A DNA stretch of 64,000 nt from Planctomycetales bacterium (GTDB lineage Bacteria; 4484-113), in NCBI GenBank assembly GCA_030606285.1, contig JAUWGS010000006.1, positions 1 to 64,000 of the forward strand, given 5' to 3'. The position numbers and the translations under genes are program-made. How positions within the stretch are numbered: the stretch's first letter is position 1; every line of letters starts with the position of its first letter. Of the stretch, positions 3,700 through 28,989 are shown one piece after another. The notes below the pieces were generated by a model. It was given only the letters and a program-made list of their open reading frames with translations, was not told the DNA's origin and did no database searches.

Positions 3700-4329
3700 G
3701 TGCGTTACTTAATCTTCATCCGGCATGGTGAGACTGCGTGGAATCGGGAGAAACGATTCCAGGGACACAGCGATGTTCCGCTGAATGAGCGCGGGCTGCT
3801 TCAGGCGGAACTCCTTGCTGGAGCGCTTCAGCGTGAGGGCGTCTCAACACTGTTCAGCAGCCCGCTCGCCCGTGCACGCCAGACAGCAGAGATCATCGGC
3901 GCGCGGCTCAATCTCGCCGTTGAGGTTATGCAGGAACTCACAGAGCTTAACTTCGGGGAGTATGAAGGGGAACTCGAAGCAGACCTTCGCGCGAAATACG
4001 GGCCGCGGTTCGCGCAGTGGCGGGAAGCCCACTACACCGAGCCGGCTCCTGGCGGTGACAGTATCCGCACCATCAAAGACCGGGCCGCCAGCGCAGTGGA
4101 GGTAATGGCCAGCGCGTCGGAGCGCGGCAGCGTTGCCGCGGTAGCCCATCAAGCGGTATTGATGGCCGTCAAGGCGTACTTGAGGAACGACTATTCCGTT
4201 GAGGCTGCCAAGTCCTACAAGCAGCAGAACAACGAAATCGACATATGGGATGTGGATGAGCGGCAGCCCCTGAGAAGGATTGCCGTATTCGGCTCCTACG
4301 CCGGCAGGCTGGTCAGAGGCGGAGGCTAG
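3700..4329 (+). CDS. histidine phosphatase family protein (phosphoglycerate mutase-like)
   Basis: 209 aa from GTG 3700. The RHGETAWN motif supplies the phospho-accepting His; LFSSPLARARQTAEII and a late His (VAVAHQAVL) complete the branch-1 histidine phosphatase signature. The usual late SHGG is AHQA here. Substrates in this family range from sugar phosphates to alpha-ribazole phosphate, and nothing nearby decides. The start is set by GAGGGGG just before GTG 3700; an upstream ATG at 3640 would add a non-conserved 20-residue tail. Confidence 0.85.
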   Translation: MRYLIFIRHGETAWNREKRFQGHSDVPLNERGLLQAELLAGALQREGVSTLFSSPLARARQTAEIIGARLNLAVEVMQELTELNFGEYEGELEADLRAKYGPRFAQWREAHYTEPAPGGDSIRTIKDRAASAVEVMASASERGSVAAVAHQAVLMAVKAYLRNDYSVEAAKSYKQQNNEIDIWDVDERQPLRRIAVFGSYAGRLVRGGG

Positions 4330-10013: not shown

Positions 10014-10475
10014 TCAGTTTTCCTGCATGAAGTGCCGTTCGTATTCAGTCTCGACGAAAGCCTTGTGGGTCAGTTCCCATTCGGCAAGGGTCGTGAATAG
10101 CTTCTTGGCAGTGTCGTCGTTAACGACTCCGCTCATGTGCTTGTAGTACTCCGCCGATTCCTTCTCCCGGGTTGCAGCATAGACGAGAGCCTCCTGATAC
10201 GTCATATCGTCGGATAATTTGGAAGGCTGAAGGTACTCGACAATCTTTAAGTCAAGCGGCTTGGCGAACTCGATGCCTTCCGACTGTCCTCTCTTTTGCA
10301 GCCCTTCGAGGACCATTTTGTGCTTCTCCTCTTCCTTGGACATGTCAAGAAAGAAGGACTTGGCCTGGACGTCAAGCGCCATATTGGCCATCCTCGAATA
10401 GAGGAGCGCCGCTTGTTCCTCCTTGTTTATCGCATACTTAAGTGCCTGCTCAAAACCTACACGTTCTGTGTCCAT
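10014..10475 (-). CDS. ferritin-like/rubrerythrin-type diiron protein
   Basis: 153 aa four-helix-bundle protein. Carboxylate motifs are visible as NKEEQAALLYSRM, SKEEEKH, ATREKESAEYYKHM and AEWELTHKAF, matching the paired E(x)nExxH pattern of rubrerythrin-like ferritins. There is no rubredoxin domain. The start is supported by AGGAGGG, and a TGGTACAGT extended -10 lies about 40 nt upstream, so it has its own promoter within the oxidative-stress block. A peroxide-reducing or iron-buffering role is inferred from the family. Confidence 0.85.
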   Translation of the reverse strand: MDTERVGFEQALKYAINKEEQAALLYSRMANMALDVQAKSFFLDMSKEEEKHKMVLEGLQKRGQSEGIEFAKPLDLKIVEYLQPSKLSDDMTYQEALVYAATREKESAEYYKHMSGVVNDDTAKKLFTTLAEWELTHKAFVETEYERHFMQEN

Positions 10476-10566
10476 AACAAAACCCTCCTGTATTCAGATA
10501 TTTGACTGTACCAAAGCGCTATGCGTCAGCCGACGGCACGACTGCTACACCCGCGATGCCAATACA

Positions 10567-10720
10567 TCAATAGCCACTGTTCCCCACTTCAGCCTTGCCC
10601 CCGAAGGTGCGATAGGCCCACACAGTATATCCGATTACTACGGGCATCCCAATCAGCGCCAGAATCAGCATCGTCGGCGTTAATCTGGTCGTTGAACGCC
10701 TGTTCGATCTTCTTATTCAA
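10567..10720 (-). pseudogene. fused relic: ferritin start plus cydB end
   Basis: Right after the superoxide reductase stop, the minus strand encodes LNKKIEQAFNDQIN, the typical start of a ferritin. It then switches frame near 10671 into MLILALIGMPVVIGYTVWAY, the last transmembrane segment and tail of cytochrome bd oxidase subunit II, stopping at 10567. Neither gene is complete. A deletion that removed most of a ferritin gene and most of cydB explains this best, which implies that both once stood here. Confidence 0.75.
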
Positions 10721-10724
10721 CGGC

Positions 10725-11102
10725 TTACTGCCCCTTCCACAGGCCATGCAGGTTGCAGTACTCGCGTGCCGTGACGCTTGCGGCACTGATGCAGAATGTA
10801 GCCTCCGGAGCGTCACCCGGCTTGAGGAACTCGCGGTAAGCCTTTCCGTCGGCGATGAGTTCGATCCACTCGATGAAGTGCTCATCGGCCATCGGGTGGG
10901 GGACGCTGCCGACCTTCACCTTGTAGCCAGTGTCGGTCTTCTCAATCACCGGCACGTGCTTCTCCGTCGCCGCGTCGATGAGCCCCTCGGACATCAGCTT
11001 CATCGGCTGGCCGCAGCACACGAGCGTTCCAGCGCCACCATGGAGCAGTTCCACGATGTTTCCGCAGATCTCGCACTTGTAGATTTCCAGTTTCTTTGCC
11101 AT
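10725..11102 (-). CDS. dfx: desulfoferrodoxin (superoxide reductase)
   Basis: 125 aa. The N-terminal desulforedoxin domain has YKCEICGN and the adjacent pair LVCCGQ binding the FeS4 centre. The C-terminal superoxide-reductase domain has [22 protein letters not shown] and the late CNLHGLW, supplying the Cys/His ligands of the reactive iron. It reduces superoxide to peroxide, which the nearby rubrerythrin can remove. An AGGAGGAAGG ribosome site precedes the ATG. Confidence 0.95.
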
Positions 11103-11183
11103 TTATCCTTCCTCCTTTATTCAATTGTGCGGCGTCGTTTCACGCCACCGTATAATCCTGCATTTGCCAGCGACGAGTGATCT

Positions 11184-11756
11184 CTACCAGTTCTCGCCCA
11201 AGAGTTCGAAATGCGCCTGGGGATGCGCGCACGCCGGACAGAGCTCCGGCGCTTCTGTGCCTTCGTGGAGATACCCGCAATTGCGGCACCGCCAGACAAC
11301 GGGGGCTTCGCGCTTGAACACGCGTCCGGCCTCGATGTTCGCCGCCAGGTCGAGGTAGCGCTTCTCGTGCTGCTTCTCGGCGACTGCAATAGCCTCGAAC
11401 ACGTCGGCGATTTCGCTGAAGCCTTCTTCGCGCGCGACACGTGCGAACTCGGGATACATCTCTGTATGCTCGTAATGCTCGCCCGCAGCTGCAGCCTTGA
11501 GGTTTTCCACCGTGGAGCCGATTACACCTGCAGGGAAGGAGCCGGTAATCTCTACCTCGCCGCCTTCCAGGAACTTGAAGAGACGCTTGGCGTGCTCTTT
11601 TTCCTGGTTGGCTGTCTCCTCAAAGATGGCCTGCATCTGCACGTAACCGTCCTTCTTCGCCTGGCTGGCGAAGTAGTTGTAGCGGTTCCGCGCCTGCGAT
11701 TCCCCGCTGAACGCCGTCAGCAGATGCTTCTCGGTCTTCGAGCCTTTGAGTTCCAT
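11184..11756 (-). CDS. rbr: rubrerythrin
   Basis: 190 aa peroxidase. The N-terminal diiron domain has the repeated E...ExxH motifs (SGESQARNRYNYF, EETANQEKEHAKRL, GEHYEHTEMYPEF, AVAEKQHEKRY). The C-terminal rubredoxin domain has VWRCRNCGY and LCPACAHP. It starts 2 bp after the HMA protein gene with AAGGAGGG in front, so it is probably translated from the same message as the metal ATPase, linking peroxide defence to metal export. Confidence 0.96.
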   Translation of the reverse strand: MELKGSKTEKHLLTAFSGESQARNRYNYFASQAKKDGYVQMQAIFEETANQEKEHAKRLFKFLEGGEVEITGSFPAGVIGSTVENLKAAAAGEHYEHTEMYPEFARVAREEGFSEIADVFEAIAVAEKQHEKRYLDLAANIEAGRVFKREAPVVWRCRNCGYLHEGTEAPELCPACAHPQAHFELLGENW

Positions 11757-11758
11757 TA

Positions 11759-12001
11759 TTAATTACCCTCCTTAGAATCAGTAGTTTCCTGGTTATCTGA
11801 GATGCTGGCCCCGTAACCTGCCTTTTCAACGGCAATGACCAGACAGCTGGTGTCGAATCCGCTCCCTTTCACAACCGCGCTGGCGGACGCAAGGTGAACC
11901 TCCGCTGACTCCACACCGTCGCACTGCGCAAGCGCGCGCATGACGGCCTGAACACAGTGGTTGCACGTCATTCCGGTGACCCGCAGCGTGACAGTTTCCA
12001 T
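11759..12001 (-). CDS. heavy-metal-associated (HMA) chaperone-like protein
   Basis: 80 aa, a single HMA domain with the metal motif MTCNHC at residues 11-16 and a typical beta-alpha-beta-beta-alpha-beta pattern. It probably hands Cu(I) or Zn(II) to the neighbouring P-type ATPase. Start ATG 12001 lies 2 bp after the ATPase gene; a longer frame to 12202 is only an overlap with that gene. The 10-residue acidic tail after YGASIS is not conserved. Confidence 0.88.
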   Translation of the reverse strand: METVTLRVTGMTCNHCVQAVMRALAQCDGVESAEVHLASASAVVKGSGFDTSCLVIAVEKAGYGASISDNQETTDSKEGN

Positions 12002-12003
12002 CG

Positions 12004-14199
12004 TCAGTTTGCTCTCCTTCTCAGCAGCCTCAGGCTGTTGAATATAACGAGCAACGACACGCCCGTATCCGCGGCTATCGCCATCCAGAGCGTCGCCAGG
12101 CCTGATACAGCCAGCACCATAAACACCGTCTTCACCGCCAGAGCGAACCAGATGTTCTGCTTGATGGTGGTGAGCGTTGCACGCGAATGCCGCACGAGCC
12201 ACGGGAGCTTCATTAAATCGTCCGACATCAGCGCAATATCCGCGGTCTCAATTGCCGCGTCGGTTCCGACCGCGCCCATAGCTATGCCCATCGTCGCCAC
12301 AGCCATTGCGGGTGCATCGTTGACCCCGTCGCCAACCATCGCAACCTGCCCGTGTTTCTCCACCAGTTTTTCAACAGCAGCCACCTTGTCTTCGGGAAGG
12401 AGGTTCGCGCGGTATTCATTCACGCCCGTCTGGTCTGCGACGACCTGCGCCGTCTGTTCGTGGTCGCCGGTGAGCATCACTACACGGTCGATCCCCGCTT
12501 CCTTGAGTTTCCTTATAGCTTCATACGCCTGATCCCGAACGCCGTCGGAGACGCTTATGAGGCCGCACACGTGGCGGTCATTGCCCACCGCCACAACGGT
12601 ATGCCCTGCGCCCTCCAGTTGCAGCGCCATATTGTGGAACTGCGGGGTTTCGCAGCCCTTTTCGTGCATGAACCGATGGCTGCCGATCCAGAAAGGCCGC
12701 CCATTGATGATGGCTTCCGCGCCTTTCCCTTCAATTGCGTGGAATTCCTCGGCGTGCAGGGGCTCAACTCCCTCGGCCTCGGCTCGTTGCACAATCGCCA
12801 TAGCTAGAGGGTGGGCGCTGTGGGTTTCCAGCGCCGCTGCCCGTGCGAGCAGCTCGGCGGTGGTGTGCTCGTTGAGCGGGACTATCTGCTGAACCTCCGG
12901 CTGCCCGTATGTGAGCGTGCCTGTCTTGTCCAGCGCAACCACCCGCAGATGTGCCGGTGCTTCTAGGAAGGCCCCGCCTTTGATGAGCACTCCGGCGTGT
13001 GCCGCCGATGTGAGCCCGGCCACGATGCTGACTGGCGTCGCAATGACCAGTGCGCAGGGGCATGCAATCACCAGAATCACCAGCGCCTGATAGAACCAGG
13101 GGACCCATAGCGCACCGAACGCGAGCGGCGGGATGATGGCGACCAGCACTGCCAGTGCCACGACTGCAGGTGTGTAGTATCGCGCGAATTTCTCCACCCA
13201 CTGCTCGCTGGGCGCACGCCTTGACTGCGCATCTTCCACCAGCCGGATAATGCGCGCCAGCGTGGTGTCGTGCGCGGCTTTGGTTACCTCAAACTCAAAC
13301 GCGCCCTCGTTGTTGATTGTGCCGGCGTATACTTCGTCGCCGATTGCCTTTGGCACCGGCGCGGATTCACCGGTGATGGGAGCTTGGTTGATTGAAGTCG
13401 TGCCGCGGGCAACCACGCCGTCCAGCGGAACTCTTTCTCCCGGCCGCACTTCAACAACTGTACCCGGGCCTACCTGCTCGACCTGCTTCACTTCGATTAC
13501 GCCGTCAGCACCGATGCAGCGTGCCGTGGGCGGCGTAAGCTCCATCAGGGCGCTTATGGCCCGGCGTGCCCTGTCAACGCTCCAGGACTCGAGCATCAAT
13601 GCCAGGGCGAACAGGAATGTCACCGTTGCGGCTTCCAACCACTGGCCGATGAACGCTGCGCCTGCAACAGCGATCACCATCAGCAGGTTCATGTCCGGGC
13701 GCAGGTTTCGCAGCGACAGCCAGGCCTTTGGCGCCACATACCATATGCCGGTGAGGATTGCGGCTGCGTAGATGAGTAATGGAGCCAGGGGTATCGTGTG
13801 GAGACTGATGTCCGCCGCCGGCCACAGGGAGCTGATAACGTCTCCCGTGTACAGGGCCTGTATCACAATGGCGACTAGTATCAGAGCGCCGCTTGCGGCG
13901 CACATCACCAGGCGTCCATGCTTTCGCCAGGCGCTCTCTTCGACCGGGCAAACGGCGCTATCGCAGATGGGCCGCCAGGGGAATGCTCTGAGGCCCGCGC
14001 GGCGAACCGCGGAGTGTATATCCTGCTCGGTGGTGACTTCCGGGTCCAGCTCGACTCGCATCTTCGCGTTCAGGACATCGAAGTCCAGGCGGCTGATACC
14101 GGGCAGGGCGCCGACGGTCTTGCGCAGTGCCGCCACTTCTTCCGCGCAGTCCAGGCCTTCTATCCTGTAGTCCAGCCGTTTCAAGTCGTTCGCTTCCAT
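12004..14199 (-). CDS. Zn/Cd/Pb-type heavy-metal P1B ATPase
   Basis: 731 aa membrane pump. It has an N-terminal HMA-like domain with a single metal Cys (GLDCAEEVAAL), the transmembrane CPC motif (VIACPCALVIATP), the phosphorylation loop DKTGTLT, a nucleotide-binding HP (SAHPLAMAI) and TGD, and a hinge GDGVNDAPA. The last helix has ADTGVSLLVIFNSLRL, whose Asp is the hallmark of Zn/Cd/Pb (ZntA/CadA) rather than Cu pumps. GLDCAEE also matches that class. It leads an operon with the HMA chaperone and rubrerythrin. Confidence 0.93.
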   Translation of the reverse strand: MEANDLKRLDYRIEGLDCAEEVAALRKTVGALPGISRLDFDVLNAKMRVELDPEVTTEQDIHSAVRRAGLRAFPWRPICDSAVCPVEESAWRKHGRLVMCAASGALILVAIVIQALYTGDVISSLWPAADISLHTIPLAPLLIYAAAILTGIWYVAPKAWLSLRNLRPDMNLLMVIAVAGAAFIGQWLEAATVTFLFALALMLESWSVDRARRAISALMELTPPTARCIGADGVIEVKQVEQVGPGTVVEVRPGERVPLDGVVARGTTSINQAPITGESAPVPKAIGDEVYAGTINNEGAFEFEVTKAAHDTTLARIIRLVEDAQSRRAPSEQWVEKFARYYTPAVVALAVLVAIIPPLAFGALWVPWFYQALVILVIACPCALVIATPVSIVAGLTSAAHAGVLIKGGAFLEAPAHLRVVALDKTGTLTYGQPEVQQIVPLNEHTTAELLARAAALETHSAHPLAMAIVQRAEAEGVEPLHAEEFHAIEGKGAEAIINGRPFWIGSHRFMHEKGCETPQFHNMALQLEGAGHTVVAVGNDRHVCGLISVSDGVRDQAYEAIRKLKEAGIDRVVMLTGDHEQTAQVVADQTGVNEYRANLLPEDKVAAVEKLVEKHGQVAMVGDGVNDAPAMAVATMGIAMGAVGTDAAIETADIALMSDDLMKLPWLVRHSRATLTTIKQNIWFALAVKTVFMVLAVSGLATLWMAIAADTGVSLLVIFNSLRLLRRRAN

Positions 14200-14247
14200 T
14201 ATCAGCGTTACCGGGGAAGCCCTAGAGCCTACAGCCCCGTGTTGCGC

Positions 14248-15459
14248 CTACCAGTCTAGCAGACGGCGCTCCCCTTTGAGCTTGCGGATGCCAGTGACGT
14301 CCTGAGACACTTCGAGCGTTCCCTTATAGTCGCCGTTAGAATCGCGCACCGCGAAGTAGCGGATGTGGAGGAATTTGCCGTTGAGTTCAAGCCAGAATTC
14401 GGCGATGTCCTTTTCGCCGTTGCGGAACGAGTCCAGTACCTTCTGAACGATATGAACGCTGGCGGGCGGGTGGCAGTTCTGAACCTTGCGCCCGATCACG
14501 CCGGGGCTGCGCGGGAAGATGCGCTCTTTGACGTCTGAGTAATACCGCACTTCATCGTTCTCGTCGACAAACGAGACATCCACCGGAAGGTGCGTGAGCA
14601 TGAGATTTATCTGCTGAAGCGTCAGCGCACCGGTTGATAGTTCCAGGGCACCTTCGTGCTCTGGAGCCGAGCGCGGAGCGGCTGTTGCAGAAGGAACGGT
14701 GCTGTCCACGCCCTCGTGTGGCTCTATCAACGCGTAGCCGATTTCTTCCTCGCCGGTCTCTACCGCCTGCCAGTTCTCATCATTGAGCTTCTCCAGTGCC
14801 ATCGGGAAGAGGATGTTTTCCTCCTTTGTAATCATATCCTCGAACTTGTCAAGGAAAGCAACTCCGCTGCCGACCGTGCTTGCAGCATCACCATCCGCCA
14901 CGGCTTTCCGCGTGCTTTTCAGCAGCGCGCGGATATCGTCGTGCACCGCCCACATGACCTTCGGCGGGCCGGTGATGCCAATCTGCTCCATCACCGGGAA
15001 CAGCTGGTTTTCTTTGCGCAAGTAGTGCTTCTCAACCTCCGCGAGCTGCTCCAGCAGCATCTGGATATCGCTTGCCTGCCTTCTGAACTTGTCAGCGTCC
15101 GGCGGGTCGCCCAAGGCTGCCAGTTCTGCGCGCAGCTTTTTCGCCACTTCGCCCAGCGCCTCGTTTTCGAGCTGGAATGTGTGCACTGGATGGCCTTTAG
15201 CGACTTGCGGCTTTGCGGGCTGTTTGACCATATCCTGGAACAGCGCCGCGTGCACGTCGCACAGGCGCTTGATTTCTTCCTCGGGCATCCCTTCGGCAAT
15301 CAGCGCCTGCTCCATATCCGCGATTTCACCGGGGCTAACGTTCTTTATCAGTTCGCCGAAGCGCCGCTTGACTTCGTCAAACGCCGCGCCTGCGTGCAGG
15401 TCCTTGATGAGTTGTTTGAGGATTGCCAGCCGTTTGGCTTTTTTGGGGGTATGTTCCAT
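14248..15459 (-). CDS. DUF438 - hemerythrin-like - PAS protein
   Basis: 403 aa cytoplasmic protein. Residues 1-75 match DUF438 (LKQLIKDLHAGA ... VSPGEIADMEQALIAEG). Residues 90-235 form an HHE/hemerythrin-like helical domain (HPVHTFQLENEAL, EKHYLRKENQLFPVME, TKEENILFPMALE) with the His/Glu ligands of an O2- or NO-sensing diiron site. From about 280 a PAS-like domain follows (LPVDVSFVDENDEVRYYSD). This layout is common in anaerobes and is usually read as a sensor; no output kinase is attached. GGAGAATTG precedes the ATG. Confidence 0.88.
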   Translation of the reverse strand: MEHTPKKAKRLAILKQLIKDLHAGAAFDEVKRRFGELIKNVSPGEIADMEQALIAEGMPEEEIKRLCDVHAALFQDMVKQPAKPQVAKGHPVHTFQLENEALGEVAKKLRAELAALGDPPDADKFRRQASDIQMLLEQLAEVEKHYLRKENQLFPVMEQIGITGPPKVMWAVHDDIRALLKSTRKAVADGDAASTVGSGVAFLDKFEDMITKEENILFPMALEKLNDENWQAVETGEEEIGYALIEPHEGVDSTVPSATAAPRSAPEHEGALELSTGALTLQQINLMLTHLPVDVSFVDENDEVRYYSDVKERIFPRSPGVIGRKVQNCHPPASVHIVQKVLDSFRNGEKDIAEFWLELNGKFLHIRYFAVRDSNGDYKGTLEVSQDVTGIRKLKGERRLLDW

Positions 15460-20857: not shown

Positions 20858-21024
20858 AGTAAGCCTTCGCACTCGTGGATTGTAGCATTTGTCCAACACT
20901 CTGACTGCTTCGCAGTGGAAGTAGAACAAGGACTGATACAAGTATAACCGCTCGCGGGCGGCATGTATGAGGGGGCCAATCAGATCCGGGAGACTGAAGC
21001 GCACAATAATTTCACCGTTTGTTG

Positions 21025-21051
21025 TATAATAGATTCTGAGAATGATTCTCA
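21025..21051 (+). promoter_or_regulatory. promoter with palindromic operator, iron cluster
   Basis: TATAAT at 21025-21030 is followed by the perfect 7-1-7 palindrome TGAGAATGATTCTCA (21037-21051), which would cover the transcription start. The half-site TGAGA...TCTCA recurs at three other places in this cluster. A Fur- or DtxR-like repressor is the natural candidate. Confidence 0.65.
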
Positions 21052-21087
21052 AAGTTAATATTCGCATACCTGTTAGGAGGTTTTCAT

Positions 21088-21429
21088 ATGCCACGCGGAG
21101 ATAGAACCGGACCGATGGGTCAGGGGCCAATGACTGGACGGCGCATGGGTTACTGCACCGGCTACGATGTTCCCGGATACGCAAACGCGCCCGGCCCCGG
21201 AATGGGATTTGGCGGTGGCGGAGGCGGACGTCGCGGCCACCGAAATATGTTCTACGCTACCGGCCTGTACGGCTGGCAGAGAGCGGGTGCTTATCCTCCG
21301 GTTCCTCCGGCACCGGTTTCGGTGAACCGGGAGGAAGAACTCGAAGCACTGAAGCGCCAGTCGGACTATTTCGGCAGTCAGCTTGATGCCATTCGCAAAC
21401 GTATTGAAGAACTGCAGAAGGAGGACTAG
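21088..21429 (+). CDS. DUF5320 family protein
   Basis: 113 aa. It begins MPRGDRTGPMGQGPMTGRRM, the hallmark of this small family found beside NifX/ORP and MinD-like genes in anaerobes. A Gly-rich centre (GMGFGGGGGGRRGHRN) leads to a C-terminal coiled coil (EEELEALKRQSDYFG ... IRKRIEELQKE). The coiled coil suggests oligomerisation; the biochemical role is unknown. AGGAGG precedes the ATG. It is the first gene after the palindromic operator. Confidence 0.85.
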   Translation: MPRGDRTGPMGQGPMTGRRMGYCTGYDVPGYANAPGPGMGFGGGGGGRRGHRNMFYATGLYGWQRAGAYPPVPPAPVSVNREEELEALKRQSDYFGSQLDAIRKRIEELQKED

Positions 21430-21434
21430 TACTT

Positions 21435-21980
21435 ATGCTGATTGCCGTAACTTCCACCGGAGACAGCCTCGACTCGCAGGTTGATCCCCGTTTCGGACGC
21501 TGTCCCTACTACATCATTTTCCAGACGGATGATGGATCATTCACGGCTCTGCCCAACAGTAGCGCCGCTATGGGCGGAGGCGCGGGAATAGAAGCTGCAA
21601 GGGTTGTAAGCGATAGTGGTGCGAAGGCTGTTTTAACCGGTCAGTGCGGCCCGAATGCGCACGCTACCCTCACCGCCGCAGGGATAGAGGTTCATGACGG
21701 CGCAAGCGGAACCGTGCGTCAGGCTGTTGACCAGTTCGTGCAGGGAAAATCGGCAGCTAATGTGCAACCCAGCGCACCTCCACACGCCGGAATGACGGGT
21801 TCCGGTGGTGGACGCGGAATGGGAAGCGGACAGGGCGCTGGCACAGGCGGTGGGCGTGGAATGGGAGGCGGACAGGGCGCAGGCAGAGGCGGTGGTCGTG
21901 GTCGCGGAATCGGCCCCCGCGATGGACGCGGCGGTGGTCGTGGCGGTGGAGGTCGCGGCGGCGGCGGTCAGGGCCAGTAG
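21435..21980 (+). CDS. NifX/ORP-type cofactor-binding protein with Gly/Arg-rich tail
   Basis: 181 aa. Residues 1-105 form the dinitrogenase iron-molybdenum cofactor domain (PF02579): DPRFGRCPYYIIF near the start, then GIEAARVV and TGQCGPNAHATLTAAG. Members include NifX, the NifB tail and the orange protein (ORP). Residues 118-181 are an unusual tail of GGGRGMG/GQGAG/GRGGG units. The stop lies 5 bp before the ribosome site of the next gene. It probably carries a metal cluster in partnership with the two ATPases downstream. Confidence 0.85.
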   Translation: MLIAVTSTGDSLDSQVDPRFGRCPYYIIFQTDDGSFTALPNSSAAMGGGAGIEAARVVSDSGAKAVLTGQCGPNAHATLTAAGIEVHDGASGTVRQAVDQFVQGKSAANVQPSAPPHAGMTGSGGGRGMGSGQGAGTGGGRGMGGGQGAGRGGGRGRGIGPRDGRGGGRGGGGRGGGGQGQ

Positions 21981-21984
21981 GAGC

Positions 21985-21999
21985 AGGAGTCAGTCCATT
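21985..21999 (+). promoter_or_regulatory. ribosome site with apparent ATT start codon
   Basis: AGGAG (21985-21989) is followed at an ideal 7-nt spacing by ATT (21997-21999). No ATG, GTG or TTG exists in frame between the upstream stop and the P-loop. ATT starts are known in infC and pcnB. Confidence 0.6.
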
Positions 22000-22842
22000 C
22001 GCATCACCATCGCCAGCGGGAAAGGCGGAACGGGCAAAACAACCGTTGCTGCCAATCTGGCCCACGTGCTTGCTCAAAACGGCGAGGACGTTCACTTCGT
22101 TGACTGCGACGTGGAGGAGCCTAACGGCCACATCTTCCTGAAGCCGGACATCGAGCGGACTCGCTCAGTCGGTGTTATGACTCCTAAGGTCGACCGGGAG
22201 CTGTGTACCGGTTGTGGCGAATGCGGAGAGATGTGCCAGTACGGGGCTATAGTCGTGGTCAAGAAGACCGTGCTGACATTTCCCACGCTATGCAACGGGT
22301 GCGGCGGCTGCGCGCTGGTATGCCCGGAAGACGCGATAAATGAGACCCCGCGTGAAGTCGGCATCATTGAAGAAGGGATGGCCGGCAAGGTAAGGTTCTC
22401 GCACGGAGTGCTCAACGTTGGAGAAGCGCGCGCAGTCCCGATAATTCGCGAGCTGACGCGCAGTCCTGCCGGTAAGACTGTAATACTGGACGCGCCGCCC
22501 GGAACTTCCTGCCCCGTGGTTGAAAGCGTGCGGAGTGCCGATTGTGTCGTGCTCGTTACCGAGCCTACGCCGTTTGGCTTAAACGACCTGGAGCTGGCTG
22601 TCGGGATGGTGCGCGAGCTCGAAAAGCCCTTTGCGGTGGTTATAAACCGCGCGGATACCGGCGACGACAGAGTCAGTGACTACTGTGCGGAGCAGGGCAT
22701 CAAGGTGCCATTAGAGATACCGGACAGCCGTGAAATTGCAGAAGCTTACTCGCGCGGCGAGCTTGTCGCCGAAGCGATTCCGGGCTACAGCGAAGGCCTG
22801 ATGAAATTGCACGAGTTCATAAGCCGGGAGCTGCAGGCGTGA
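21997..22842 (+). CDS. MinD/Mrp-type ATPase with ferredoxin insert (first of two)
   Basis: 281 aa if it starts at ATT 21997, giving (M)RITIASGKGGTGKTT, which aligns with the usual MKIAIASGKGGTGKTT beginning of the family. The Walker A lysines are intact. Two 4Fe-4S binding motifs are inserted at about residues 67-110 (CTGCGECGEMCQYGA; CNGCGGCALVCPEDA), followed by ILDAPPGTSCPVV. Pairs of such ATPases accompany ORP/NifX proteins, as in the Desulfovibrio orange-protein complex. A frame-open extension upstream is only the Gly-rich gene read out of frame. Confidence 0.88.
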   Translation: MRITIASGKGGTGKTTVAANLAHVLAQNGEDVHFVDCDVEEPNGHIFLKPDIERTRSVGVMTPKVDRELCTGCGECGEMCQYGAIVVVKKTVLTFPTLCNGCGGCALVCPEDAINETPREVGIIEEGMAGKVRFSHGVLNVGEARAVPIIRELTRSPAGKTVILDAPPGTSCPVVESVRSADCVVLVTEPTPFGLNDLELAVGMVRELEKPFAVVINRADTGDDRVSDYCAEQGIKVPLEIPDSREIAEAYSRGELVAEAIPGYSEGLMKLHEFISRELQA

Positions 22843-23771
22843 AAGAACTCGTTGTCATAAGCGGCAAGGGCGGGACCGGCAAGACGAGCGTGGTCGCCGC
22901 ATTTGCAGCTCTGGCGGGAAATGCTGCACTCGCCGACTGCGACGTTGACGCCGCCAACCTGCACCTGCTGCTGGATCCGCAAGTCCAGGAATCGCACGAG
23001 TTCGTTGGCGGAAGCACTGCGGTGATTAACCCCGAGAACTGCACATCATGCGGACTCTGCGAGGAGCTCTGCCGCTTTGACGCGCCGCATGACTGCGGCC
23101 TAAACCGGCAAGGCCTGCCCGCGCCTTATGAAATCGAAGCTGTCGCTTGTGAAGGATGCGGCGTGTGCGCCCGGTTCTGCCCCGAAGATGCTATCAAAAT
23201 GCAGGAAACCGTCAATGGGCAGTGGTTCATCTCCAAGACGCGACATGGGCCGATGGTGCACGCGCGGCTGGGTATCGCTGAAGATAACTCGGGCAAGCTC
23301 GTGAGCCTGGTTCGTGAGAAGTCGCGGGAGGTCGCTGCGTCCAACGGCTGTGAAGCCATCATCGTAGATGCCTCCCCCGGAATAGGCTGCCCGGTGATTG
23401 CCTCGCTCACCGGAGCGAAGCTGGCCCTTATAGTCACTGAACCGACGCTCTCAGGTCTGCACGACCTGCAGCGAATCAGCGAGCTCACCAGGCATTTCGG
23501 GATACCCACAATGGTAGCTGTAAACAAGTACGACCTGAACGAGGACATCGCCGGGAGGATAGAAGGCGTCGCACGCGATGGTGGAATGGAGATAGGCGGG
23601 CGAGTTCGCTATGACCACGTTTTCACCCGGGCGATGATCCACCGGCAGAGCGTTGTGGAGTATACTGATGAAGGAGCTGCCGCAGACCTGCGGAAGCTCT
23701 GGGACGCTGTACAGACTTATCTGACGAGCAGTACCGAACAAACGACAACCACTGGCGAAGGAGATGGCTAA
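22839..23771 (+). CDS. MinD/Mrp-type ATPase with ferredoxin insert (second of two)
   Basis: 310 aa. It starts at GTG overlapping the previous stop by four bases (GTGA), so translation is coupled. The P-loop is ISGKGGTGKTSVV, with two 4Fe-4S motifs (CTSCGLCEELCRFDA; CEGCGVCARFCPEDA) and IIVDASPGIGCPVIA. It is paralogous to the preceding protein, and the two probably act as a heteromer. It ends in a Thr-rich tail (SSTEQTTTTGEGDG) and its stop overlaps the next start. Confidence 0.9.
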   Translation: MKELVVISGKGGTGKTSVVAAFAALAGNAALADCDVDAANLHLLLDPQVQESHEFVGGSTAVINPENCTSCGLCEELCRFDAPHDCGLNRQGLPAPYEIEAVACEGCGVCARFCPEDAIKMQETVNGQWFISKTRHGPMVHARLGIAEDNSGKLVSLVREKSREVAASNGCEAIIVDASPGIGCPVIASLTGAKLALIVTEPTLSGLHDLQRISELTRHFGIPTMVAVNKYDLNEDIAGRIEGVARDGGMEIGGRVRYDHVFTRAMIHRQSVVEYTDEGAAADLRKLWDAVQTYLTSSTEQTTTTGEGDG

Positions 23772-24136
23772 TGAGGATTGCCCTACCGATGGCAGATGGA
23801 AGGCTTAGCCCGCATTTCGGACGCTGTGAAGGCTTCATCCTGATAGATATTGACCCGGAAAGCCGGCAGATAACGGAGCGCAACAGCGTTCAGAGTCCCG
23901 TTCACGCGCCGGGCGCCTTCCCCGCTCTTCTGGCCGAGCACGGCGTCACGCACGTGCTGGCAAGCGGCATGGGGCCTCGGGCGGTGAACCTGTTCACACA
24001 GCACGGCATCGAGGTGGTAATCGGCGCTCTCAGCGATGATGTCGAGCAGGTGGTGGCTGAATTCCTGGAAGGCGATTTGCAGACCGGTGAAAGCCCCTGT
24101 GACCACGACGAGCGCCACGGTCGCGGTGGCCATTAG
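23771..24136 (+). CDS. NifX/ORP-type cofactor-binding protein (second copy)
   Basis: 121 aa, PF02579 fold: MADGRLSPHFGRCEGFILIDID, LLAEHGVTHVLASGMG, then NLFTQHGIEVV. The tail CDHDERHGRGGH is rich in His, Asp and Cys and could bind metal. The ATG overlaps the preceding stop (taATG), making five genes from DUF5320 to here a tight unit. It differs from the first copy in lacking the Gly/Arg tail. Confidence 0.88.
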   Translation: MRIALPMADGRLSPHFGRCEGFILIDIDPESRQITERNSVQSPVHAPGAFPALLAEHGVTHVLASGMGPRAVNLFTQHGIEVVIGALSDDVEQVVAEFLEGDLQTGESPCDHDERHGRGGH

Positions 24137-24178
24137 AAAGTAGTTTACCTCCCTTGGATGAAACCAGCGACCAGTCTG

Positions 24179-24224
24179 TTGACTTCAGGCTATTCCCCTG
24201 TAATAATGTTGAGACTTAATCTCA
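24179..24224 (+). promoter_or_regulatory. feoA promoter with palindromic operator
   Basis: TTGACT (24179-24184) and TAATAA (24201-24206) are separated by 16 bp. TGAGACTTAATCTCA (24210-24224; extended TTGAGA...TCTCAA) follows immediately, where transcription should start. This is the best-formed promoter-operator pair of the cluster. Confidence 0.65.
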
Positions 24225-24255
24225 AATAACCTGAACTTCAACCGGGTAGGAGTAT

Positions 24256-24522
24256 TTGGGAACTGAACGGGATATGGAAGCGAATAACGGTCTAACACCG
24301 CTGGCAAAAGCGAAGCTGACAGCGCCTTATTCGGTGTGCGAACTGCACGGCGAGGAGGAGACGCAGCAGCGTCTGGCGGAACTCGGGTTTGTCAGAGGCG
24401 CGTGCGTCAGCGTCATCCAGCGCGTTGGCGGTGGGGCTAAGGTGCGAGTCAACGGCTTCCATCTCGCACTGAACCGTGAGCTACTTAATATGATAATCGT
24501 CCGTCCGCTCGTTCTTGAGTGA
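24256..24522 (+). CDS. feoA: FeoA family SH3-like protein
   Basis: 88 aa. The FeoA domain reads ETQQRLAELGFVRGACVSVIQRVGGGAKVRVNGF split over the usual beta-barrel; LGFxxG and the late MIIVRPL are typical. It assists FeoB in ferrous iron uptake. The start is ambiguous: TTG 24256 is only three bases from AGGAG, while ATG 24274 is 21 bases away. feoB follows after about 50 bp. Confidence 0.85.
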   Translation: MGTERDMEANNGLTPLAKAKLTAPYSVCELHGEEETQQRLAELGFVRGACVSVIQRVGGGAKVRVNGFHLALNRELLNMIIVRPLVLE

Positions 24523-24573
24523 TCATTCTCCACCTGTAAGCTGAACTCCAACTATGAAAGGTCTTCGCAAGAA

Positions 24574-26958
24574 ATGGAATTGAGACAGAGTCTCAACAAA
24601 ACTCCCAGGCCTGCCAAAGGGATCGATGATCAGGCCCCGGACGAACTGAACCTCATTCTGTGCGGCAATCCCAACGTTGGCAAATCAACCGTATTCAACG
24701 CGCTCACGGGGGGCGACGCGCACGTAGCCAACTACCCCGGAGTCACCGTTGAGGTGAAGCACGGGCACTTCAGGACCGGCACTGTGAAGTGGGTGGCGCA
24801 GGACACGCCTGGAATCTATTCGCTGTCCGCCCAAACCATGGATGAAGTAGCGGCCGAGACCATACTGCTGGACCAGCATCCGAACGTGTGCATCCAAGTT
24901 GTGGACACCCAGAATCTCCCGCGTGACCTATATTTGACGATTGAGCTTATGGAGCTTGGCTATAGGCCTACACTTATCCTCAACAAGTGGGACCTGGCGG
25001 AGAAGAGCAACCGTACGCCTGACGTGGAGAAGCTTGAAGAGGCTCTTGGCCTCAAGTGCATTCCTGCGGTTGCGAACAGGCGAGCGTCTTTGCAGCCGGT
25101 GAAGGACTACCTCGCGAGCATCACGCCCGATGCGAGCGCGCGGGTTGCGAAGCCGCAGGTGCAGATTGACTACGGTCGTGTTCTTGGCGACATTCTCCGC
25201 GACACCGAGCGGCAACTTGAGGTCTTTGACAGTCCTCAGTCCGTGCCTGCACGTTTTGCCGCGCTGAGATTGCTCACCGTCGGACGTGGGGAGCACCCGG
25301 GAAGGGGAGGCGGACGCGGTCGTATGGGCGCTGGTCGTGGTCACGGACGAGGCTGGCGTATGCACCGGCCTCATCCGGTTTCCGGTGCCGAGCCGGTCAT
25401 GGGCTGGCGGCACCAGCTCCGCGCGCGTGCTTATTCAGAGTGCTTGTCCCAGCTAGGTGAAGAGCCGGTGGTCATCGTCGCCGAGCGCCGCCACGCATAT
25501 ATCAAAGCGGTATTGCGGCGTATCGGCTTCGCCGCTGATGCGCGGACTCGCGAAGTTCCGGTAACTGTGGGGCCGGCAACAGGCGCACCAGCTTCGGAGG
25601 TAGCTGCAACGGCAGGAGAAGCTGCTGCCACCGCTGGAGCACCGCCATCGCCGCCGATAGCGACAACATCAGATCGGCTCGACCGGTGGCTTCTGCATCC
25701 AGTACTTGGATGGATCGCATTCATCATCGGGATGTGGCTCGTGTTTCAGGCCACCTTCACTCTGGGCGCGCCGCTGATGGACCTGATCGACGCCGGCGTC
25801 TCGTGGCTGGCGGACGCATCTCTGGTAGCGCTGGCCGGTGTACCCCTTCTGGCTTCACTTGTAGGAGAGGGCATCATCCCGGGAGTAGGGATGGTGCTGA
25901 TATTCCTGCCGAATATTTTCATTCTCTTTCTGGCGCTCTCGCTGCTTGAAGACAGCGGCTATCTCGCCCGGGGCTCGCTGCTTACCGACGGCGCACTGCG
26001 TCGCTGCGGCGTTTCCGGCCGATCGTTTATCCCAATGGTGATCTCATTCGGGTGCAATGTGCCCGCTGTGCTGGCGACGCGCACTATGCCCAGTTTCAAG
26101 GACCGGCTCATCACCATCGCAATTCTGCCGCTGATGAGCTGCGCTGCGCGCATGCCGGTCTACGTGTTGCTTATAGGCGCATTCTTTAGCCGCGCCTGGG
26201 CTGGGACTATCATTACGCTAATGTACTTCCTGGGAATCGTAGTGGCAGTGCTGATCGCACTGCTTCTCCGCAGGATGATTGTCACCGGCGAACCGGGCTC
26301 GCTAATCATCGAGCTGCCCGAGTATAAAATGCCGCGGCCACTGGCAGCCGTAAAGGGCATGTGGCTGATGGGCAAGCATTACCTGCAGAAGGCGGGTACT
26401 ATCATCTTCGCGGCTTCGATTGTCATCTGGTTCCTCTTCAGTTTCCCGCAAGCGCCGGCAACGCTCGCCAGGAGCAGTTCTGCGCCCAATGTTGCCGTGG
26501 CTGCGGAAGAGGTGCTGGCGGGAGAAGAACTCGTAACTGAAGACACAAGCAATGTTGTGGGCAATAGCTATGCTGGACGCATGGGCAAGGCTATTGCACC
26601 GTTCTTCGCACCATTAGGCTTCGACTGGCGAGTGACCGTTGGGCTGATAGGTTCAACCCTCGCCAAAGAAATAATGGTCTCCACGATGGGAGTCGTCTAC
26701 GGGGTAGGGGATGAAGCCGAAGCCGAAGATGAGACTCTCATTGAAACCGTGCGCACAAGCTCCGGCCTGACTCCACTGACTGCACTCGCACTGATGATCT
26801 TCGCACTGCTCTATCTGCCGTGTCTGGCCACCATAGCGGTGATCTACCATGAGCTCCGAAGCGCAAGATGGACGCTGGCGATTATGGGCTTGCATTTCGG
26901 CGCGGCCTATCTACTCGCCTTCCTGGCAATCCAGGTCGGTCGTGTAATGGGATATTAG
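24574..26958 (+). CDS. feoB: ferrous iron transporter B with Gly/Arg/His-rich insert
   Basis: 794 aa inner-membrane Fe(II) transporter. The G domain has G1 GNPNVGKST, ANYPGVTVE, DTPGIYS and NKWD. The membrane part (from about residue 370) contains the gate motifs GCNVPAVLATRTM and SCAARMPVYVLL. Between the two, residues about 237-265 are an unusual stretch with GRGGGRGRMGAGRGHGRG and further His, and residues 325-362 form an Ala/Pro linker. The first codons contain the palindrome described at 24581. Confidence 0.95.
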   Translation: MELRQSLNKTPRPAKGIDDQAPDELNLILCGNPNVGKSTVFNALTGGDAHVANYPGVTVEVKHGHFRTGTVKWVAQDTPGIYSLSAQTMDEVAAETILLDQHPNVCIQVVDTQNLPRDLYLTIELMELGYRPTLILNKWDLAEKSNRTPDVEKLEEALGLKCIPAVANRRASLQPVKDYLASITPDASARVAKPQVQIDYGRVLGDILRDTERQLEVFDSPQSVPARFAALRLLTVGRGEHPGRGGGRGRMGAGRGHGRGWRMHRPHPVSGAEPVMGWRHQLRARAYSECLSQLGEEPVVIVAERRHAYIKAVLRRIGFAADARTREVPVTVGPATGAPASEVAATAGEAAATAGAPPSPPIATTSDRLDRWLLHPVLGWIAFIIGMWLVFQATFTLGAPLMDLIDAGVSWLADASLVALAGVPLLASLVGEGIIPGVGMVLIFLPNIFILFLALSLLEDSGYLARGSLLTDGALRRCGVSGRSFIPMVISFGCNVPAVLATRTMPSFKDRLITIAILPLMSCAARMPVYVLLIGAFFSRAWAGTIITLMYFLGIVVAVLIALLLRRMIVTGEPGSLIIELPEYKMPRPLAAVKGMWLMGKHYLQKAGTIIFAASIVIWFLFSFPQAPATLARSSSAPNVAVAAEEVLAGEELVTEDTSNVVGNSYAGRMGKAIAPFFAPLGFDWRVTVGLIGSTLAKEIMVSTMGVVYGVGDEAEAEDETLIETVRTSSGLTPLTALALMIFALLYLPCLATIAVIYHELRSARWTLAIMGLHFGAAYLLAFLAIQVGRVMGY
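24581..24595 (+). promoter_or_regulatory. operator-like palindrome inside the start of feoB
   Basis: TGAGACAGAGTCTCA lies over codons 3-8 of feoB, extended to TTGAGA...TCTCAA. It shares the half-sites of the other three cluster palindromes. It could be a roadblock site, or the operator of a promoter lying in the feoA-feoB gap. Confidence 0.5.
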
Positions 26959-27021
26959 GAGCAGTGAACCCCGGGCCAAACAGCCAGATGCGTGGGCAAG
27001 CTGCCAAATTTATTTTGAGAT

Positions 27022-27036
27022 TGAGACCCAATCTCA
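27022..27036 (+). promoter_or_regulatory. operator-like palindrome before the barrel protein gene
   Basis: TGAGACCCAATCTCA, directly preceded by another TTTTGAGA half-site (27013-27020). It lies 28 bp before the GTG start at 27064, in the 105-bp gap after feoB. No clear -10 box is visible next to it. Confidence 0.55.
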
Positions 27037-27063
27037 TATCATTACTTGTGTTGAGGAGGATAA

Positions 27064-28044
27064 GTGAACGCTAAACACGAATTATCAATGAAATCACGGT
27101 TGAAAGGAGTATTGTTGTTCTCAGCGCTCGTTCTGGGCGCGTGTCTTGTTGCCTCTCTGCCCGTGAGCGCGGAGACAACCACCGGTTGCCCGCTGGGCAT
27201 TGAAGAAGACCAGTTCTGGGTGAGGACTTCTCATAAAATGGTCGACATGACAGAGAAGTACGATCGGCAATCGGACAGCATGTTGCCTCTGCCCCCCGGC
27301 TGGTATAAGCAGGTGGACACTAGCAGTTTCCGCCTTGGCTACGGCCTGAGTGATAGCTGGGAAATCGGTCTGCTTTTCATCGAAAGAAACATCAATCAGA
27401 AAACCTTCAACAAGAAGACGAAGACCTGGACCGAGATTCACGACGGCGGCATCGGCGATGTCTGGCTGGCGCTCGGATACAAGTTCCTGGAAGAAGAGGA
27501 TTGGGGAGGCTTCGACGAGGCGTATATGAAGCTGGGGCTGGGCTACAAGTCGGGTATGCTGGACACGTTGAGTGACCGCGAGATCCTTCATGGGGTAGGA
27601 AACGGCGCTCGCGAAATGAAGCTGGTATTCCTCTCGCACGAAGTTCTGGGCAAGCTCGCGTTCTGCAATCACCTTATGTACCACTGGCGCGGTACCGCGC
27701 CCACGATTCCCGGCTCCAAGCTCTCGGGGCAGAATCTCGCCGACAGATTGAATTATAAGTTCAATCTCGAGTATGAGTTATCCGAGGATTGGGTGGCTAA
27801 TGTCGGCCTTTTCGGCTGGATGGATGTGCAGAAGATAAGCTTCGCCGGCAAATTCAAGGACAAGGGAATGGATGGACAGAAGGCGCACATGCACCGCCTG
27901 GTGTTCAGCCTCGAAAAATCGCTCGGTGAGGACAAGTATGGCCACAAGAAGCTCAAGCTCGCCTACGGCATTCCCTACAGCGTGAAGAATGGGATGGTGC
28001 CGGACTACGACATCATGCTGATAGCCATGTATACTTGGCCTTAA
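27064..28044 (+). CDS. predicted outer-membrane beta-barrel protein
   Basis: 326 aa from GTG 27064, with GAGGAGG just before. A signal peptide (GVLLFSALVLGACLVA ... VSA) leads to a protein of alternating polar/aromatic strands (FRLGYGLSDSWEIGLLFIE; GGIGDVWLALGYKFL; FNLEYELSEDWVANVGLFGW) ending IMLIAMYTWP, as expected for a barrel of about 12 strands with an aromatic C-terminus. I recognise no named porin family. Lying behind a cluster-type operator and feoB, it may let iron or a chelate cross the outer membrane (inference). Confidence 0.65.
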   Translation: MNAKHELSMKSRLKGVLLFSALVLGACLVASLPVSAETTTGCPLGIEEDQFWVRTSHKMVDMTEKYDRQSDSMLPLPPGWYKQVDTSSFRLGYGLSDSWEIGLLFIERNINQKTFNKKTKTWTEIHDGGIGDVWLALGYKFLEEEDWGGFDEAYMKLGLGYKSGMLDTLSDREILHGVGNGAREMKLVFLSHEVLGKLAFCNHLMYHWRGTAPTIPGSKLSGQNLADRLNYKFNLEYELSEDWVANVGLFGWMDVQKISFAGKFKDKGMDGQKAHMHRLVFSLEKSLGEDKYGHKKLKLAYGIPYSVKNGMVPDYDIMLIAMYTWP

Positions 28045-28101
28045 GTTCTGTCTGCACGCTACGGAACGAATGTGACGAATCAACAAAGGAGTGGATTACA
28101 C

Positions 28102-28989
28102 ATGCATCACGAGAACTTGCTCCGAAGGTTCAAGGCGCTACTAGTTGTATCCCTGGTGGTAATGGCGCTTGCTTCTCTCAGGGCGGAAGCTCACCTGCTA
28201 TGGATCAACCTGTCCGAGCATTATCCGCAGCACGGCTACACCAATGCCTGCTTCGGTTGGGGTCACCATTTCCCGCTGGATGATTTCCTGTCAGCGGAAG
28301 CGCTGGCCAGCTTCGAGCTGATCCGACCCGACGCAGCGCGCACAGAACTATCCCCGGGCCCTGGCGGCTACCTGGCCACCCGGGTGGAGCTGTCGGAGCC
28401 GGGCAACTATATCGTTGTGGCCTCGCTCGCGCCCGCCTATTACACGATGTATCAGGAGGACGGCGAGGTGCATCACAAGGTAGGCCCCAAGACCGGCGTT
28501 ACCGGACAGGTACTCCTCAGCGCACTCCACCAGCAAAACGCTAAGGCTCTGGTAACGGTAGGTGCCCCGGAATGGAATCAGGACGCTCAGGTGGTCGGGC
28601 ACCGGCTGGAAATTATTCCCCTGACATGCCCATACCGGCTCGCCCTGGGGGACAAGTTGCGGGTGCGCGTTCTCTTTGACGGAGAGCCAGCGGCCGGAGT
28701 TGAGGTCACGGGGATCTACTTCGGTCCTGCCTCCACTACTGAGTCGCCGCTCTGGAGCAAGACCGCAGACGAAAACGGTATCGCAACCGTCTGTGTGCAG
28801 CACGCGACTGTTGGAGCGGGCCTGGCAGCACTCAAGCAGCAGGCCGTATGGATGCTATCGGCGATAGTAAGGCAGCCTGCGCCCCCGGAGCTGGCGGACA
28901 GGTGCAACGAGCTGTGGTTTACGGCGACCCTGACTCTGGAGATGCGGGAGGAAGTAGCTGCCTTGGTGGGCGAGACGACTGCTTCATAG
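28102..28989 (+). CDS. DUF4198 exported metal-uptake-type protein
   Basis: 295 aa from ATG 28102. A signal peptide ends at ASLRAEAH, and the mature protein begins HLLWINLSEHYPQHG, typical of DUF4198 (COG5266, periplasmic partners of Co/Ni uptake). His-rich patches (FGWGHHFPLDD; GEVHHKVG) and a carboxypeptidase-regulatory-like beta domain (LFDGEPAAGVEVTGIYFG) are visible. It follows the barrel gene by 57 bp and probably belongs to the same operon. The metal could be iron given the context, although the family is usually linked to cobalt or nickel. Confidence 0.78.
   Translation: MHHENLLRRFKALLVVSLVVMALASLRAEAHLLWINLSEHYPQHGYTNACFGWGHHFPLDDFLSAEALASFELIRPDAARTELSPGPGGYLATRVELSEPGNYIVVASLAPAYYTMYQEDGEVHHKVGPKTGVTGQVLLSALHQQNAKALVTVGAPEWNQDAQVVGHRLEIIPLTCPYRLALGDKLRVRVLFDGEPAAGVEVTGIYFGPASTTESPLWSKTADENGIATVCVQHATVGAGLAALKQQAVWMLSAIVRQPAPPELADRCNELWFTATLTLEMREEVAALVGETTAS

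Follow-up and report, generated by a model that had tools for sequence, protein, structure and literature searches.

Candidate operators of an Arg/Lys-type Fur repressor in the feo gene cluster of a Planctomycetales bacterium

Here, we describe four matching palindromes in the ferrous-iron (feo) gene cluster of a Planctomycetales bacterium (GenBank assembly GCA_030606285.1), located within the first 64,000 nucleotides of contig JAUWGS010000006.1, hereafter the window. Judged from the sequence, the four very probably serve as operators for an iron repressor of the Fur family, the likeliest candidate being the Fur encoded on contig C30 of the same genome, a protein of the subtype with arginine or lysine at a key position of the recognition helix (Arg/Lys subtype). 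In the mechanism that we propose, an Fe(II)-bound Fur dimer would cover TGAGA-N5-TCTCA over the promoter or transcription start of a DUF5320-NifX-MinD operon, of feoA, and of a gene pair encoding an exported protein and a DUF4198 protein, would bind once more at the 5' end of feoB, and would keep these genes off when iron is plentiful. In each heptamer the Arg/Lys subtype would recognise G at the fourth position and, in many cases, a pyrimidine (C) at the sixth, so that its consensus would be TTGAGACTNAGTCTCAA in place of the classical TTGATAATNATTATCAA. The assignment of the regulator to Fur is well supported, and the specificity code is offered as a testable proposal.

The first-pass annotation of this DNA had placed the four 15-mers at 21037, 24210, 24581 and 27022, and re-reading of the window found them there. 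No other perfect TGAGA-N5-TCTCA occurs in the window, compared with a mean of 0.08 and a maximum of 1 in 100 dinucleotide-preserving shuffles. At that rate the 6-kb interval containing the sites would be expected to hold 0.0075 of them rather than four (Poisson P(>=4) ∼1e-10). The genome-wide scan suggested by the annotation (genome G000; 2,303,343 bases, 36 contigs, 91% complete) returned these four and none elsewhere, where the window's shuffle rate would predict 2.9, and a reversed control pattern had no match at all. The longer form TTGAGA-N5-TCTCAA is matched exactly by two of the sites and with a single mismatch by the other two. Looser sites with up to two mismatches number 53 genome-wide, as against 31 for the reversed control, those with two mismatches lying near background. 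A wider regulon within the genome was rejected, as one- and two-mismatch sites elsewhere are close to the reversed-pattern background. All four palindromes are inverted 7-1-7 repeats with TGA/TCA ends, as Fur boxes are, and their half-sites read TGAGAC, TGAGAT or TGAGAA; they lack the GATAAT hexamers of the classical E. coli-type box and are classed here as variant Fur operators.

Comparison with one genome of the same genus (G001, its contig C26) indicates that the sites are under selection. Three of the four operators are present there base for base, operator 4 lying outside the coverage of that contig. Operators 1 and 2 are each identical at 15 of 15 positions while their flanks have drifted to ∼50% identity: the block at 21021-21056, spanning the -10 box and operator 1, matches at 35 of 36 positions compared with 64 of 117 just upstream, and in the feoA promoter the -35 element (6/6) and the block from the -10 to the operator (31/32) are retained around a spacer matching at 5/13. 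Operator 3 is also identical, but the feoB coding DNA on either side is well conserved too, and its conservation is therefore weaker evidence. Within the same order or class, full or near matches to TGAGA-N5-TCTCA lie upstream of feo in genomes G003, G004, G005, G007 and G009, and among distant genomes a perfect or near-perfect site precedes feo in G050, G061 and G091 and a Fur gene in G024 and G091. A locus in G061 (L035, contig C19) has three TTGAGA-N5-TCTCAA-type sites, at 4013, 4076 and 4150, within 150 bases, and is a strong candidate for a target of an Arg-type Fur.

Scanning a GTDB-based genome collection with the 17-mer TTGAGACTNAGTCTCAA gave at least 117 sites. Most of the 117 listed are in Planctomycetota and Verrucomicrobiota, although phylum shares may reflect the order of the scan. 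A Fur-family gene lies directly downstream of 13, a feo start lies within 600 bases of 23, and one or the other is found at 31, compared with 3.5 for random positions on the same contigs. Among these listed matches, the 17-mer stands directly ahead of Fur-family genes in Omnitrophota, Neomarinimicrobiota, Latescibacterota, Spirochaetota and others, and examples from Omnitrophota, Latescibacterota, WS1 and Spirochaetota show the order site, fur, feoB. This association of the sites with Fur genes across phyla, together with their conservation ahead of feo in relatives, whose absence the first-pass annotation had named as grounds for abandoning its idea of an iron-type regulon, bears that idea out. 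Other families downstream of the listed sites, by Pfam tally, are again linked to iron: the TonB plug and barrel, FTR1, heme oxygenase, SufBD, PepSY_TM and a siderophore-type binding protein. The tally also holds seven PF12974 (phosphonate-type) binding proteins. In Opitutales/Opitutia and other Verrucomicrobia (for example, at L047, L052, L083, L102 and L109), the 17-mer lies ∼20-40 bases ahead of genes of ∼310 codons; the seven PF12974 proteins are possibly the products of these genes, and are possibly iron-binding.

Fur- and DtxR-family genes were sought in the same genome, for the comparison that the annotation had also proposed. Four Fur-family proteins are encoded, one on contig C30, two on C26 and one on C8. 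The C30 protein (L005) matches PF01475 (2.3e-31, 109 bits), has HHDH and CxxC motifs and a TVYR helix (SRSTVYR), and is the most Fur-like of the four, its best PDB and NCBIfam matches both being Fur. It is probably a Fur-family protein of the iron type, although not a certified Fur equivalog. The DtxR C-terminal domain PF02742 had no match in this 91%-complete genome (the N-terminal domain PF01325 was not searched). Given the lack of a DtxR C-terminal domain, a plausible iron-type Fur and the 117 listed motif loci, the regulator is most likely Fur and not DtxR; the annotation had left the choice between a divergent Fur and a DtxR protein, of which the former agrees with the fur and feo association of the sites and the latter loses ground with the missing PF02742. 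The C30 Fur is the most likely reader of the four operators. We infer its binding, the identity of the metal, repression and direct contact by the Arg.

Could the operators instead belong to one of the paralogues, with peroxide or zinc as the signal? These are Fur-family proteins of the same genome, and the 7-1-7 operator layout is common to the family. Nevertheless, we consider this improbable: the C26 pair is PerR-like, the key helix residue being Met (SMSTIYR), and PerR-like Furs in our survey sit behind boxes such as ATAGTAATTGTTACTAT rather than TGAGA; the C8 protein, which is Zur-like, has Gln at that position and adjoins znuA/znuC-like genes; and ferrous iron is what the putative target genes handle. 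Less probable still is a non-Fur repressor, of the DtxR/MntR or another type, whose use of TGAGA arms would be chance. The arms are indeed unlike textbook Fur hexamers, and feo is under DtxR-family control in some bacteria. However, besides the missing PF02742, the 17-mer lies directly ahead of Fur genes in several phyla, the sites have the Fur 7-1-7 geometry, and operator 4 has a third half-site shifted by 6 bp, as reported for Fur operators (PMC545781). Compatible with Fur as the regulator, but doubtful, is that operator 3 is a coding coincidence and only three sites are functional. Operator 3 lies in the feoB reading frame, inspection of the locus found no promoter in front of it, and the DNA around it is also conserved in G001; yet of all four it comes nearest to the consensus of the subtype, with TGAGAC in both half-sites, and there is precedent for intragenic Fur sites in Desulfuromonas, where they are predicted at +39 and +93 (PMC545781).

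The choice of bases goes with a single residue of the protein. Where the residue two places ahead of the recognition-helix TVYR is Arg or Lys, the Fur has TGAGAC-like half-sites; where it is Leu, Phe or Tyr, the half-sites are mostly TGA[A/T]AAT. In a first genome sample, the boxes of Arg/Lys-type Furs were unlike those of other Furs. A first automatic palindrome search was dropped, having picked GC-rich chance palindromes at many genes, and was replaced by a rule that accepted TGANA...TNTCA up to 260 bases upstream if 7 or all 8 of the fixed bases matched, and that left positions 4 and 6 free. In a second sample, which is partly dependent as a few families recur (G024 and G171, for example) and part was found with an Arg-type Fur profile, G occupied position 4 in 20 of 24 half-sites of Arg/Lys Furs and in 5 of 44 half-sites of others; for C at position 6 the counts were 11/24 and 0/44. 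Among contigs selected by the 17-mer, all 12 Fur genes scored had Arg at the key position. In a tree built with the key residue masked, most Arg-type Furs fall into one weakly supported clade, with six changes overall, and the residue-base link is thus a subfamily trait with few independent switches. A fur-feoB operon on contig C48 of G010 (L032 and L225) encodes a Fur with Phe at the key position (GFSTVYR) and has no TGAGA box; it is a natural contrast to the Arg type.

Several observations weigh against this account. Only two to three independent pairs in the tree bear on the residue-base link, too few for significance, and contingency p-values therefore overstate it; at position 6 none of these pairs contradicts the link, and at position 4 they are mixed. 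Operator 1 lacks the position-6 pyrimidine expected for an Arg-type Fur. The C30 protein falls under the NCBIfam Fur cut-off (best match PRK09462, 89 bits vs 146). No matching box precedes the C30 fur gene; autoregulation through a TGAGA box was therefore rejected, and any autoregulation is absent or works through another site. Finally, several of the perfect palindromes found for the sister order (G003-G006) lie at genes without an evident link to iron. It is plausible that the key Arg/Lys is the residue that causes the change of box. The broader proposal, that specificity switches from TGATAAT to TGAGACT through an Arg/Lys at the head of the recognition helix, which acts by Zur-like purine readout and defines a multi-phylum Fur subfamily, we hold to be about evenly balanced between true and false.

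Known structures suggest how such a switch might work. The TVYR arginine of M. gryphiswaldense Fur, Arg57, recognises a G (PMC4506495), which would correspond to heptamer position 2, and in E. coli Zur a second residue, Tyr45, recognises the purine across from the Y of RNNNY (PMC4219657), a purine that would align with the opposite strand of position 6. By analogy, we propose that Arg52 reads the purine opposite position 6. The E. coli Zur operator is RNNNYxxxRNNNY (PMC4219657), a skeleton shared by GAGACxxxGTCTC but not by the classical GATAAxxxTTATC; among the four sites, operators 2-4 conform to it and operator 1 departs from it. Zur differs in using Tyr45 and sensing zinc, whereas here we propose Arg/Lys as the reader, and the genes concerned are iron genes. 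The M. gryphiswaldense Fur-DNA structures (PMC4506495) show the expected fold and Tyr56/Arg57 contacts, TVYR being present here, but the Arg/Lys lies at the position matching their residue 52, and no structure of an Arg/Lys type at residue 52 was identified among the PDB alignments examined.

The four sites share with the classical Fur box (E. coli GATAATGATNATCATTATC; 7-1-7 form TGATAATNATTATCA) the inverted heptamers around one base, the TGA/TCA ends, the location upstream of feo and, at operator 4, the extra half-site shifted by 6 bp; they differ in having G rather than T at position 4 and often C or T rather than A at position 6. Lineage-specific Fur boxes are already established (PMC545781). 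The delta-proteobacterial dFUR-box WTGAAAATNATTTTCAW is found ahead of feoAB, fur and porins (Rodionov 2004, PMC545781), and resembles the present case in governing small regulons, in having overlapping boxes offset by 6 bp and in lying within genes at some loci, but its arms are TGAAAAT rather than TGAGACT and it is predicted for another Fur branch (FUR_Delta). No description of the TGAGAC form was found in the literature searched, which left subscription papers and regulon databases mostly outside, so that a prior description is possible.

The features of the cluster are collected in Table 1. Operators 1, 2 and 4 adjoin promoter-like elements predicted from the sequence. As the annotation had observed, a -10 box directly precedes the first two sites (TATAAT and AATAAT); its statement that a site stands at the start of each gene holds for DUF5320, feoA and the putative barrel gene and not for feoB, where the site is inside the reading frame. 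Operator 1, with A at position 6 of both heptamers, is the nearest of the four to the classical Fur box, and operator 4 occupies the spacer of a promoter-like TTGAGA-16-TATCAT (27015-27042).

Table 1. Operators, promoter elements and genes of the cluster (window coordinates)
Feature	Position	Strand	Remarks
-10 box TATAAT	21025..21030	+	DUF5320 operon promoter; read from sequence
Operator 1, TGAGAATGATTCTCA	21037..21051	strandless	Ahead of DUF5320-NifX-MinD-MinD-NifX genes
DUF5320 protein	21088..21429	+	Pfam PF17253, 2e-27
NifX-type (Nitro_FeMo-Co) protein	21435..21980	+	PF02579, 2.6e-23; Gly/Arg-rich tail
MinD/ParA-type ATPase	21979..22842	+	PF01656, PF00037; two 4Fe-4S motifs
Second MinD/ParA-type ATPase	22839..23771	+	PF00037, PF01656; 4Fe-4S motifs
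Second NifX-type protein	23771..24136	+	PF02579, 9.9e-23
feoA promoter TTGACT-17-AATAAT	24179..24207	+	TG precedes -10; good sigma-70 type
Operator 2, TGAGACTTAATCTCA	24210..24224	strandless	Immediately 3' of feoA -10
feoA	24256..24522	+	PF04023, 1.6e-12; start codon uncertain
feoB	24574..26958	+	NCBIfam TIGR00437, 510 bits (cut-off 315.65); PF02421, PF07664
Operator 3, TGAGACAGAGTCTCA	24581..24595	strandless	Within feoB codons 3-8; ATG at 24574
Extra TTGAGA half-site	27015..27020	+	6 bp upstream of operator 4; doubles as -35 hexamer
Operator 4, TGAGACCCAATCTCA	27022..27036	strandless	Ahead of the putative barrel gene
Exported protein, putative beta-barrel	27064..28044	+	No Pfam or NCBIfam family matched
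DUF4198 protein	28072..28989	+	PF10670, 5e-36

A single-sequence fold model of the exported protein reached a pLDDT of 33, so that its beta-barrel nature is only a proposal. From the 27-base gap between them, this gene and the DUF4198 gene probably share one transcript. A literature search brought up no paper on the DUF5320 family. The first NifX protein ends at its C terminus in a Gly/Arg-rich (RGG-like) stretch (21775-21975), and the cytosolic part of FeoB has a Gly/Arg/His-rich insert (25295-25380); metal or RNA binding is conceivable for both. The opposite strand upstream of the cluster (10014-15459) encodes two ferritin/rubrerythrin-like, one P-type-ATPase-like and one hemerythrin-like protein, named from reading of their translations only, and no TGAGA operator is present in this region. 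On contig C26, the two PerR-like paralogues (L041, 172000-190000) are ∼88-90% identical, each adjoins a similar NuoF/HydB-like gene, and the pair is a tandem duplication.

Prediction of Fur boxes commonly relies on matrices of the E. coli type. A Fur subtype that reads TGAGAC looks widespread but little described, and if the present reading is true, regulons of the Arg/Lys subfamily are missed by E. coli Fur-box scans in many little-studied phyla. The residue-base link is a simple hypothesis of protein-DNA specificity, and being able to tell from one residue that a Fur uses this second code would make iron regulons callable in Planctomycetota, Verrucomicrobiota, Omnitrophota and other uncultured phyla. 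For the DUF5320/NifX/MinD cluster, probable control by iron provides a lead on its role.

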